From Halocatena pleomorpha (lineage in GTDB: Archaea > Halobacteriota > Halobacteria > Halobacteriales > Haloarculaceae): a stretch of 64,000 nucleotides of DNA. The DNA lies in NCBI RefSeq assembly GCF_003862495.1, contig NZ_RRCH01000003.1, positions 1 to 64,000 of the forward strand, written 5' to 3'. The stretch's first letter is position 1, and each line of letters opens with the position of its first letter. Both the position numbers and the translations under genes were made by a program. A model generated the notes under the pieces. That model was given only the letters and a program-made list of their open reading frames with translations, did not search any database and had not been told where the DNA came from. Shown here in pieces: positions 6,159-21,107 of this stretch.

Positions 6159-8411
6159 ATGGGACTAGATGAGGATTCGCTGGCGTATCATCGGCGGTCT
6201 CCGGCAGGAAAAATAGCGATGTCGACAACGAAACCGACGAGTACGCAGCGCGATCTGAGCTTAGCGTACTCGCCGGGTGTTGCCGCTCCGTGCCGTGCGA
6301 TCGACGAAGATCCGACAGCGGCCTACAAGTACACGACCAAGGGAAATTTGGTGAGCGTCGTTTCGAACGGCAGCGCGGTGTTAGGACTGGGCGATATCGG
6401 CGCTCAAGCCTCAAAGCCCGTGATGGAGGGCAAAGGTGTGCTGTTCAAGCGGTTCGCGGACATCGACGTGTTCGACATCGAACTGAACGAATCCGATGTG
6501 GACGCGTTCGTGGACGCAGTCGCGGCAATGGAACCGACGTTCGGTGGCATCAATCTCGAAGACATCGCGGCCCCGGCGTGTTTCGAGATCGAACAGCGGT
6601 TGCGCGAGCGCATGGACATTCCCGTGTTTCACGACGACCAACACGGCACCGCTATCATTTCCGGTGCTGCCTTGGTGAACGCCGCCGAGATCGCAGATAA
6701 ACAGCTCTCCGATCTCGACATCGTCTTTTCCGGCGCGGGCGCGAGCGCGATCGCCACAGCACGATTTTACGTCTCCCTCGGCGCTAAAAAGGAGAACATC
6801 ACCATGTGTGATTCCTCGGGAATCATTACCCAATCGCGCGTGGCAAGTGGCGAAATCAATAATTTCAAACAGGAGTTCGCGCGCGACATTCCGGGCGGCG
6901 ATCTGTCGGACGCGATGGCCGGCGCGGACGTGTTTGTGGGGTTGTCTGTCGGGGGGATCGTCAGCCAAGAGATGGTCCAGTCGATGGCACGAGATCCGAT
7001 CGTGTTCGCCATGGCGAACCCGGACCCGGAGATCGACTACGAGGAGGCCAAAGCTGCCCGTGAAGATACGGTGATCATGGCGACAGGCCGGTCGGACTAC
7101 CCCAACCAGGTCAACAACGTGCTGGGCTTTCCGTTCATCTTCCGGGGTGCCTTGGACGTTCGCGCGAGCGAAATCAACGAAGAGATGAAAGTGGCGGCGG
7201 CGCGCGCGCTCGCTGACCTGACTCGACAGGACGTTCCCGACGCGGTCGTCAAGGCGTACGGTGATCAGCCCCTCCAGTTCGGATCGGAGTACATCATTCC
7301 CAAGCCGCTGGATCCGCGGGTGTTGTTCGAGGTGTCGGGAGCAGTCGCCCAAGCGGCTATCGACAGCGGCGTCGCCCGCGAAACGATCGAGCAACCGAGC
7401 TACCGCGAACAGCTAGAGGCCCGACTCGGCAAATCCCGCGAGATGATGCGAGTGGTGCTCAACAAGGCCAAATCCGCTGACCAGCGCATCGTCTTAGCGG
7501 AAGGCACCAATGAAAAAGTCATCCGAGCAGCCCACCAGCTCATCGAGCAGAACATCGCACAGCCAATCCTCATCGGTGACAGGGACGTGATTCATGACAC
7601 TGCCGGCTCGCTCAGACTAGAGATGGATCCGGAGATCGTTGATCCGAGCGAGGATTCGCTGACAACGTACGCAGATCACTTGTACGAACTGCGAAAACGC
7701 AAAGGGATGACCCGTCGTGAAGCAGACGACCTGATCCACGATGGGAATTTCTTGGGTAGTGTGATGGTTGATGTTGGAGACGCGGACGGACTGCTGGCGG
7801 GATTAACACACCACTATCCGTCGGCGTTGCGCCCGCCCTTGCAAGTGATCGGTACCGCTCCCGAGGCTGACTACGCGGCCGGAGTCTATCTGTTGACGTT
7901 CAAAAACCGGGTGGTGTTCTGTGCGGACGCGACGGTGAATCAGGATCCGAACGCAGCGGTGTTAGCCGAAATCGCCCAGCACACGGCAGCACTGGCCCGG
8001 CGATTCAACGTCTCCCCACGGGTGGCGTTCCTTTCCTATTCGGATTTCGGCAGCGTGCGCACCGAAGGCACCGTCAAGCCACGGGAGGCGGCCAACCAGT
8101 TGCGCGTTGATCCCTCGGTCGACTTCCCGGTCGACGGTGAAATGCAGGCCGACACCGCAGTGGTCGAAGAGATGTTGACGGGAACGTACGATTTCGCTGA
8201 GCTTGATGAGCCCGCGAACGTTCTCGTATTCCCGAATCTCGAAGCGGGGAACATCGGCTACAAACTGCTCCAGCGGTTGGGCGGGGCCGACGCGATCGGT
8301 CCGATGCTGGTCGGAATGGCAAAACCCGTTCACATCCTCCAACGCGGCGACGAAGTCGCAGACATCGTCAATCTCGCCAGTATCGCTGCTGTCGACGCAC
8401 AAACGAATTAG
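6159..8411 (+). CDS. maeB: Malic enzyme fused to a phosphate acetyltransferase-like domain (MaeB type)
   Basis: A 750-residue two-domain enzyme that oxidatively decarboxylates malate to pyruvate, usually with NADP. Residues 1 to about 410 form the malic enzyme part. Visible there are the malate region ([12 protein letters not shown]), [21 protein letters not shown] with its catalytic lysine, the metal-binding acidic stretch [14 protein letters not shown] and HDDQHGTAI, and the dinucleotide loop [15 protein letters not shown]. Residues from about 430 to the end resemble phosphotransacetylase ([46 protein letters not shown]). In MaeB proteins this second domain is thought to be regulatory, sensing acetyl-CoA. 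Full length, single transcription unit. Confidence 0.95.
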
Positions 8412-18480: not shown

Positions 18481-18699
18481 AGATTGGAGTTTCTCTACGA
18501 GATGGATATCGTTGCATTCCCCTCAGTGGTCGCCGCGAATATCGATTACACGGGGGAGTATATTTCCCGGCGCTGTCGAACGCTCACAGACGCTGAACTT
18601 CTTCAACGAGTGGATGCTTCAAACTACCGCCTTACAACGCTCGGTGAATCATTCATTACAGGCAAAGCCACAGCAGACGAGATCGAATTCGACGGATAG
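18421..18699 (+). pseudogene. Fragment of a PhiH-like winged-helix repressor
   Basis: From 18484 a frame encodes EFLYEMDIVAFPSVVAANIDY and then SRRCRTLTDAELLQRVD and YRLTTLGESFITGK. This is the winged-helix core of the PhiH1-type repressor family common in haloarchaeal proviruses. The expected N-terminus (a stretch like DRKPRI before LEFL) is present in another frame at 18464-18481, separated by a 2-nt shift, and no start codon precedes it. A TTG at 18484 is the only start. The most likely reading is a decayed repressor gene; a short functional version from TTG is less likely. Confidence 0.5.
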
Positions 18700-18850: not shown

Positions 18851-19654
18851 CTACTCCGCTAAATAGACCGTCTCTCCGTCTCGGGAGACGCGATCGAACG
18901 CTTCCAGATACGTCACTCGATCCGTACATTCCTCTATATCGAGCGCAAGGGTAGTCGCCAATTCTTGTACCGTTGTCGATTCATCAAGCGCGTAGAGCAC
19001 TTCGAGCCCACGGTAGTACCGAGTCGTCAACGCCTGAATGCGGTCCTCGATCGGCGTAGTCACTCCGTACCGCTCGTCGAGGTCAAGGAGGGCTTCGTTC
19101 GCAAAGGTGACGAACTGGTCATCGCCGAGTCGGTCGATCTGTCTCTCGAGTTCGGACTGGACGACATCGAAGTCGAGCCCAGCTTGTACGAGCATGTTCA
19201 TATCTTCAATATCACCATCCCGTCCGGCGATCAGTTTGAACAGGAAGATGTCCTCAGTACTGACGAGGCGGACGGTCAACGCGCCTGTTGTCAAGAACGG
19301 CTCGCTGCGTTCGTCCATTTCGTTGGTAAGGATGAGTTTGTTCGCGACCTGCTGGTTGAAGATATCCAGCCGACAACCGTCGTCGTTCTCGACGCAACTC
19401 GTTGCTCCGAGGGCCTGGTAATCGGGGCCGAGTGCCTGCACCTCGGTGTAGCCCAACTCCATCAGGGCGGCCCAGAGCTGGCCGTACGCCTCACCATCGG
19501 TGATGACGAGATCGATATCCTTCGTCGCTCCTTTGAGATCACGAAACGACATTGCACCTCCACCGATCAGGGAAACCGTGAGCGGACCAGACAGGCCGTC
19601 GGCGATCCGCTGGAATTCATCTTCGATGTACTCGCGACCAAACGTCGGTCTCAT
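18851..19654 (-). CDS. Nucleotidyltransferase-fold protein (AbiEii/DUF6036-like), possible toxin
   Basis: A 267-residue protein with the nucleotidyltransferase core: SLIGGGAMSFRDLKGATKDIDLVI gives G31-G33 and the metal-binding D46 and D48. A following DIFNQQVANKLILT and VRLVSTEDIFLFKLIAGRDGDIEDM are typical of DUF6036/AbiEii-like enzymes. The last ~60 residues form a helical domain that may be a second winged helix. Its start overlaps the upstream HTH gene by 4 bp (ATGA), an AbiEi/AbiEii-like regulator-enzyme order. By analogy it may modify tRNA or protein as a toxin or defence effector. That role is inferred, not shown. Confidence 0.8.
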   Translation of the reverse strand: MRPTFGREYIEDEFQRIADGLSGPLTVSLIGGGAMSFRDLKGATKDIDLVITDGEAYGQLWAALMELGYTEVQALGPDYQALGATSCVENDDGCRLDIFNQQVANKLILTNEMDERSEPFLTTGALTVRLVSTEDIFLFKLIAGRDGDIEDMNMLVQAGLDFDVVQSELERQIDRLGDDQFVTFANEALLDLDERYGVTTPIEDRIQALTTRYYRGLEVLYALDESTTVQELATTLALDIEECTDRVTYLEAFDRVSRDGETVYLAE

Positions 19655-20577
19655 TGGGGCACGGCCACCCCGTAGTCAGCTGCTAACTCCTGAAACTCGG
19701 GCCATGCCGGGAGGCGCTGGCTCTGGACATCGCCGTGGCTGTCGAGATAGCACAGAAGTGAATCGATCGTTTCTTCAAGCCCGTATCTGGCCGCTCGCTC
19801 GCGGAGCGTGGGCTCCTCGATATCGATGCGGCGGAACAAAAGCAAGCAGTACGAGCGGTGACGGGTGTCGTCGTCGATCAGCAGCGTGTGACAGCAGAGG
19901 TCCGCTGGCGAGACCGAGTCCAGCGCTTCGGAATAGAAGTAGTAGCGGTGGCTCGTCAACAGAAACTGGAGGTCATAGTCCGCAAACCGGGCCAATCCGG
20001 TCTCGTGAAAGCCATCTGCATCGATCTCCGTCTCGGTTTGTGCGAGAAATTCGGCGTGACCGTTCCAGAGGATCGTCCCGCTCGGCGCAACCGATTCGAG
20101 CCGGTGGCGATGGAGATGGTGCGCGAGTTCGCGCGCGAAGTCGTGGAGTCGGTCGAACTCGTCGTTGAAATGGTATCGTCCGTCGTCCGTTCCCACCAGC
20201 CCGCGGTGTCGAAGCCGCTTCAGATTGCGGTTGACGGTGTTCCGGTAGTTGCCGCTCGCCGCCGCCAACTCCGTGACTGTACTCGGCCCATCGAAATGAT
20301 AGAGCACGTCGAGACATTTTCCGGTCAACAGTTCGGGAAAGTCGATGTGAGCGTGCTGGCGGACGAGGTCCTGAAAGATCTCGACGGCGCGGGTGTCTGA
20401 AGGGATGATCCGCTTGCGACGGCCATCGCGCTCCGTGTAAACGAGACCCTTCGCAGAGAGCGTCGTGATGGCACGGGAGATGTAACTCTCGCTGTGATCA
20501 AGGCTAGCCGCGACGTCAGAGATCGTGTCACCGCGTTCGGCAGTGGCGAGAACGTCGAGTTCGATGCTCCGGAGCAT
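19651..20577 (-). CDS. Double winged-helix regulator, possible antitoxin of the nucleotidyltransferase pair
   Basis: A 308-residue protein. Residues 1-65 form a MarR-type winged helix (LDHSESYISRAITTLSAKGLVYTERDGRRKRI). A second winged helix lies around 85-140 (LLTGKCLDVLYHFDGPSTVTEL; NYRNTVNRNLKRLRHRGLVG). The remaining half is unclassified and holds FLAQTETEIDADGF. It is the first gene of a two-gene unit with the nucleotidyltransferase. A 53-bp imperfect palindrome (20578-20630) encloses its TATA box and abuts its start codon, so it very probably represses its own operon. The start at 20577 fits a leaderless transcript. Confidence 0.8.
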   Translation of the reverse strand: MLRSIELDVLATAERGDTISDVAASLDHSESYISRAITTLSAKGLVYTERDGRRKRIIPSDTRAVEIFQDLVRQHAHIDFPELLTGKCLDVLYHFDGPSTVTELAAASGNYRNTVNRNLKRLRHRGLVGTDDGRYHFNDEFDRLHDFARELAHHLHRHRLESVAPSGTILWNGHAEFLAQTETEIDADGFHETGLARFADYDLQFLLTSHRYYFYSEALDSVSPADLCCHTLLIDDDTRHRSYCLLLFRRIDIEEPTLRERAARYGLEETIDSLLCYLDSHGDVQSQRLPAWPEFQELAADYGVAVPQ

Positions 20578-20630
20578 GCTGTAACATAGTACGAAACTGA
20601 TTATAAATGAGTTTCGAGTAGTGTTACAGC
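20578..20630 (-). promoter_or_regulatory. Palindromic operator enclosing a TATA box
   Basis: Left arm GCTGTAACATAGTACGAAACT and right arm AGTTTCGAGTAGTGTTACAGC are inverted repeats with 16 of 21 positions matching (GCTGTAACA and CGAAACT are perfect). The 11-bp spacer holds TTTATAAT on the minus strand, about 25 bp before the ATG at 20577. A protein bound to both arms would block TBP/TFB. Confidence 0.72.
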
Positions 20631-20951: not shown

Positions 20952-20980
20952 CGGGCGCTGAGGGATTCGAACCTCAGTCG
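20952..20980 (-). repeat. Partial copy of the tRNA-Arg 3' end (attachment-site-like)
   Basis: Read on the minus strand this gives a T arm (GAGGTTCGAATCCCTC) and the 3' acceptor strand AGCGCCCG. The first 16 bp on the plus strand are identical to the start of the intact tRNA-Arg at 21031, followed by one mismatch and another GAACC match. No 5' half is present. Such 3' tRNA duplications mark the end of elements integrated at tRNA genes. Confidence 0.6.
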
Positions 20981-21030: not shown

Positions 21031-21107
21031 CGGGCGCTGAGGGATTTGAACCCCCGACAGCTTGGTCCGAAGCCAAGCACTCTAAATCCAGGCTGAGCTA
21101 AGCGCCC
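21031..21107 (-). tRNA. tRNA-Arg (anticodon TCG)
   Basis: On the minus strand the acceptor stem is GGGCGCT/AGCGCCC with discriminator G. The D stem is GCTC/GAGT. The anticodon stem CTTGG/CCAAG encloses CTTCGGA, giving TCG for CGA codons. The T arm is GGGGG-TTCAAAT-CCCTC. A TTTAAAT box lies about 25 bp upstream (near 21132). No intron or encoded CCA. A partial copy of its 3' end lies 50 bp beyond it. Confidence 0.96.

Follow-up and report, generated by a model that had tools for sequence, protein, structure and literature searches.

In the 64,000-nucleotide stretch of Halocatena pleomorpha DNA analysed here (the window), two overlapping genes on the minus strand form an operon. The first gene (19651–20577, minus strand) encodes a 308-amino-acid regulator, in which Pfam placed two winged-helix domains, at residues ~7–56 and ~89–136, followed by a C-terminal PF24271 (HVO_2833_C) domain (148.5 bits; cut-off 34). 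The AlphaFold model of this protein, in which the two winged helices were also found, was confident (pLDDT 94.8). A Foldseek search with the model gave no matches at E ≤ 0.001, the best ones being mostly winged-helix proteins, and yielded no identification of the C-terminal domain. The second gene (18851–19654, minus strand), whose start overlaps the regulator stop via ATGA, encodes a 267-amino-acid protein that matched PF19502 (DUF6036) with 33.2 bits (cut-off 23.6). The top Foldseek matches of its AF2 model (pLDDT 92) were structures of MenT1 (8an5 and 8an4, E 8e-6), a toxin of M. tuberculosis, and a profile search also matched this toxin with an E value of 0.002. Residues G31, G32, D46, D48, D97, K140, R145, D148, and D151 were invariant in 51 of 51 aligned members. 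The predicted structure is that of a nucleotidyltransferase fold with GG...DxD and a MenT-type topology. This putative toxin also ends in a C-terminal winged helix (residues ~203–265), through which it could bind DNA or the operator complex.

Two further features were observed near the operon. A small winged-helix-like open reading frame of 71 amino acids, with a weak HVO_A0261_N match, is convergent to it (18484–18699, plus strand). In addition, the 3' end of tRNA-Arg(TCG) is partly duplicated ~60 bp away from the intact gene (20953–20973 and 21031–21107, minus strand), like the attachment-site scar that an integrated element would leave.

Immediately upstream of the regulator gene, whose ATG at 20577 abuts it, lies a palindrome of 53 bp (20578–20630, minus strand) that encloses the core promoter and is the predicted operator. 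Read on the minus strand, its parts follow in the order GCTGTAACA-CTACT-CGAAACT-CATTTATAATC-AGTTTCG-TACTA-TGTTACAGC, after which the ATG follows directly. The upstream arm consists of an outer half-site, GCTGTAACA (20622–20630), and an inner half-site, CGAAACT (20610–20616), which overlaps the factor B recognition element (BRE) with its haloarchaeal consensus CGAAA (PMC4983044). The downstream arm holds the inner half-site AGTTTCG (20592–20598) and the outer half-site TGTTACAGC (20578–20586), the latter adjoining the start codon and presumed transcription start. The TATA box TTTATAAT occupies positions 20600–20607 in the spacer; all these elements are on the minus strand. Re-examination of the sequence bore out what the preliminary description had reported about this site: arms of 21 bp with 16 matches around an 11-bp spacer, perfect symmetry in the outer 9 and inner 7 bp of the arms, a TATA box in the spacer, and contact with the start codon. 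The 5 bp that separate the outer and inner zones are all mismatched between the arms. Distances between the zone centres (outer, inner, inner, outer) are ~11, 21, and 11 bp, or about one, two, and one helical turns. Such spacing would place the four half-sites on one face of the DNA, an arrangement that suits a dimer with two winged helices in each subunit.

The 16/21 match of the arms is, by itself, not rare on a genome-wide scale, since arms with at least 16/21 matches and any spacer of 3–20 bp occurred ~3 times per Markov shuffle of the 64-kb window. The combination of a perfect outer 9 and inner 7 bp was found once in the window and in none of 20 shuffled windows, and the probability of any 16/21 palindrome within 260 bp of local composition was ~0.0025. 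In the whole 3.65-Mb genome, TGTAACA-N30-40-TGTTACA had a single occurrence. Near-matches elsewhere in the genome were not in excess (70, versus 84 in a reversed control), and further genomic targets, of which none were seen beyond chance, were rejected.

Relatives of the regulator were present in 225 of 392 sampled genomes of the order. A set of 182 distinct homologous regulators from Halobacteria was collected with upstream DNA. Most belong to one of four main clades (A–D), and the others form a few small lineages; the regulator in the window belongs to clade A, and the tree did not settle in which order clades A, B, and C and the L019 group branched. The best common palindrome centre, found without fitting individual sequences, lay at −27.5 from the start codon in clades A, B, and C and at −29.5 in clade D, and the TATA motif began at −31 in most sequences of each clade. 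At least 6/7 outer pairs were symmetric at the common register in 78/81 loci of clade A, 20/31 of clade B, 20/22 of clade C, and 12/39 of clade D, as compared with 0.05% at shifted centres. Information content at −55 to −1 was ~1–1.7 bits per base in clades A–C, versus ~0.25 bits further upstream. The preliminary description had proposed a search for the same palindrome upstream of homologues, and it was indeed present, in register and with its right outer arm in contact with the start codon, in nearly all close relatives. Clade D had a less strict outer palindrome and a right inner zone that was not conserved (0.38 bits), which indicated that the form with four half-sites is not universal. 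Because CGAAA in the left inner zone is the BRE consensus, promoter constraint also acts on this zone, so that its conservation has two causes.

Left and right arms changed jointly between clades, with TGTAACA as the outer word in clade A, TGTTGCA in B, TGTCTCA or TGTCCCA in C, and TGTMAAC in D. Among representatives of clades A–C, the outer pairs −48/−7 and −49/−6 were symmetric in 81 and 90% of loci, respectively, versus 32% when right arms were swapped between loci. The same comparison gave 83 versus 51% for the inner pair −39/−16 and 58 versus 36% for the inner pair −38/−17. In the tract between the zones, no covariation was seen (34 versus 33% after swapping). Over whole arms, 12.9 matches were obtained, versus a permuted mean of 10.5 and a maximum of 11.4 in 20,000 permutations that ignored relatedness. 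A locus's own arms also outmatched the arms of same-clade partners in clades A, C, and D. These results agreed with two proposals of the preliminary description, namely that there are two contact zones, as both zones covaried between arms and the tract separating them did not, and that these fit a regulator with two winged helices, the number that Pfam and the model gave for this protein. Differences between operator words were also seen within single genomes: G050 and G026 each contain copies from clades A, B, and D, G011 contains copies from B, C, and D, and every copy in these genomes has the operator word typical of the clade to which its own regulator belongs.

Among the 180 regulators with enough downstream sequence, an intact nucleotidyltransferase gene followed in 119, a remnant in 25, and neither in 36; in 111 of the 119 intact pairs, the genes overlapped by 4 nt (ATGA or GTGA). 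The operator of clade A was equally well kept with an intact, remnant, or absent nucleotidyltransferase, and 19/21 clade-A loci that had lost this gene retained at least 6/7 outer pairs. Since the operator is kept whatever the state of the nucleotidyltransferase, self-control seems not to need that protein.

In the plasmid collection, 135 records contained the regulator and 91 the nucleotidyltransferase, and when viral contigs were searched with an alignment of the regulator, 90 pattern matches were obtained, none of which encoded a relative. Five plasmid copies (L242, L243, L244, L245, and L246) have a conserved neighbourhood with an orc1/cdc6 (or orc4) replication gene or AAA ATPase and often a DNA polymerase B. 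This neighbourhood continues with a divergent 107-amino-acid protein, whose start lies 138 bp upstream of the regulator, then the regulator itself and, in some copies, the nucleotidyltransferase. A transposase gene was observed at the junction of the two genes in L246 (6940–8169), L038 (TnpB-like), and L087, placing the nucleotidyltransferase (intact in L246) ~1.38 kb from the regulator and the promoter. In L245, a putative module, a PIN and AbrB pair (6962–7648), replaces the nucleotidyltransferase. Judged by eye, the regulator is followed by a fusion of a helix-turn-helix and a nucleotidyltransferase in L114 and by a Fic-like protein in L097. Several annotated plasmid copies have PIN/AbrB, AbiEi-family, or TnpB-type genes around the pair. 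The plasmid neighbourhood suggests that the pair, with its putative toxin, is a plasmid maintenance or defence module.

Taken at the level of sequence, these observations make it highly probable that the palindrome serves as the operator through which a toxin-antitoxin-like operon is negatively autoregulated. In the proposed mechanism, a dimer of the 308-amino-acid regulator, with four winged helices in total, would occupy the four half-sites. The bound dimer would cover the BRE, the TATA box, and the transcription start, thereby excluding TBP/TFB and RNA polymerase from the promoter and lowering synthesis of both the regulator and the overlapping nucleotidyltransferase. Autoregulation is documented for bacterial toxin-antitoxin pairs with a nucleotidyltransferase (PMC3985639, PMC7319586). 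The preliminary description had regarded the window as strong evidence for self-repression. One window alone does not carry that grade, and the proposal is instead backed by comparative evidence, namely conservation in register, covariation of the arms, and operator sequences that follow the linked regulator rather than the host. We infer binding by the 308-amino-acid protein, its dimerisation, and the toxin and antitoxin roles; that the effect would be repression and not activation is deduced solely from the overlap of the site with TATA box, BRE, and start.

An unlikely variant of this mechanism is that binding of the regulator to its own operator leads to activation, or that the regulator acts via the nucleotidyltransferase, by co-repression or conditional cooperativity, instead of through simple repression. 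Consistent with such a role, a winged helix is present at the C-terminus of the nucleotidyltransferase, so that this protein might join the complex. However, sites over BRE, TATA box, and start have the placement expected of a repressor, and loci devoid of the nucleotidyltransferase retain the operator. Binding of the site by some other regulator of the host, rather than by the protein encoded in the operon, is also very improbable. Regulators of many families bind palindromes that overlap archaeal promoters, which on general grounds would allow for a host regulator. The genome, however, holds no second perfect site and no excess of near-matches, and operator words differ among copies within one genome, following the clade of the linked regulator. 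Differing words in one genome, each matching the linked regulator, make a host-wide regulator unlikely and the linked regulator the natural ligand; a host regulator was rejected on this basis.

Part of the symmetry might instead reflect a symmetric bidirectional core promoter, in which the inner zones would be BREs flanking a near-symmetric TATA box, and transcription would run both leftward, through the operon, and rightward, as a divergent transcript. In favour of this reading, the BRE of haloarchaea is CGAAA (PMC4983044), the mirror strand has the sequence CGAAACTGATTATAAAT, and a divergent gene for the 107-amino-acid protein is located 138 bp upstream in 63/80 clade-A loci. As a full account of the palindrome this explanation is nevertheless improbable: it leaves unexplained the outer arms, where covariation is strongest and which are not elements of a promoter; neither the window nor clades B, C, and D contain the divergent gene; and clade D has lost the right inner zone yet keeps its outer arms. 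The site could additionally act as a bidirectional promoter. The probability of a chance palindrome or of an RNA hairpin or attenuator is negligible. Although 16/21 arms by themselves turn up a few times per shuffled window, both explanations are opposed by conservation and symmetric covariation, on which grounds a chance palindrome was rejected as far as sequence can do so. Transcripts are leaderless as a rule in Haloferax and largely so in haloarchaea (PMC4983044). With TATA at −31, the transcript should begin at about the start codon, and the palindrome, lying upstream of this presumed start, is presumably not transcribed. An Rfam search gave no match besides the tRNA, and an RNA element was likewise rejected.

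Beyond autorepression, a tentative possibility is that these archaeal operator/regulator pairs make up a family whose members are insulated from one another and use a two-part code, in which the first winged helix would read the inner word and the second the outer word. In this scheme, the nucleotidyltransferase may join the complex via its own winged helix, with the toxin:regulator ratio tuning repression. The inner word and the first recognition helix changed together (partial r of distance correlation 0.28 for all loci and 0.37 for clades A–C), which gives support to a reading of the inner zone by the first winged helix. For the outer word and the second helix, the corresponding partial correlations were −0.03, which lends no support, and 0.18, which lends weak support. 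A table of second-helix motifs and outer words (NTVNR with TGTAACA, STVHR with TGTTGCA, ATVYR with TGTCTCA, and QxV with TGTMAAC) favours a link between the two, yet largely follows the clades and is only suggestive. If a two-part code applies, a cell could harbour several copies that do not cross-talk. The covarying operators amount to a set of orthogonal repressor/operator pairs already available for testing in haloarchaea, and the regulator/nucleotidyltransferase pair itself points to a probable module for plasmid maintenance or defence.

Both window proteins match known families, PF24271 (HVO_2833_C) and DUF6036 (PF19502), above the Pfam cut-offs. In the literature searched, neither family was named or given a function, and no account of the pair was found. 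The nucleotidyltransferase shares with MenT1 of the MenAT system (PDB 8an4/8an5), which adds cytidines to tRNA 3' ends (PMC10435456), its predicted fold and the G-G...D-x-D and K/R/D active-site residues that are invariant here. It differs from MenT1 in its extra C-terminal winged helix and shows 17–20% identity in the Foldseek alignments; its partner is a regulator, whereas that of MenT1 is the 68-amino-acid MenA1. With the type IV AbiE system (AbiEi and AbiEii), the operon shares its gene order, regulator first and nucleotidyltransferase second, and the 4-nt overlap. AbiE likewise has a winged-helix protein, AbiEi, and inverted repeats over the promoter, at which in that system AbiEi mediates autorepression of the regulator-nucleotidyltransferase pair (PMC3985639, PMC7319586). 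Differences concern the regulator, which here has two winged helices instead of one and a C-terminal PF24271 domain, the archaeal promoter, and the operator, which in AbiE comprises two 23-bp inverted repeats 3 bp apart and here a single TATA-centred palindrome with two zones. The AbiEi domains PF13338 and PF09407 were not among the 25 Pfam matches listed for the window regulator, and the same kind of scan did detect an AbiEi domain in a neighbouring plasmid protein. The nucleotidyltransferase matched DUF6036 and gave no AbiEii/DUF1814 match in Pfam; PADLOC reported a weak similarity to AbiEii (E 8e-4). Membership in AbiE was rejected on these domain results. By analogy, the proposed mode of control of this operon resembles AbiE autoregulation, while its domains place it outside the AbiE family.
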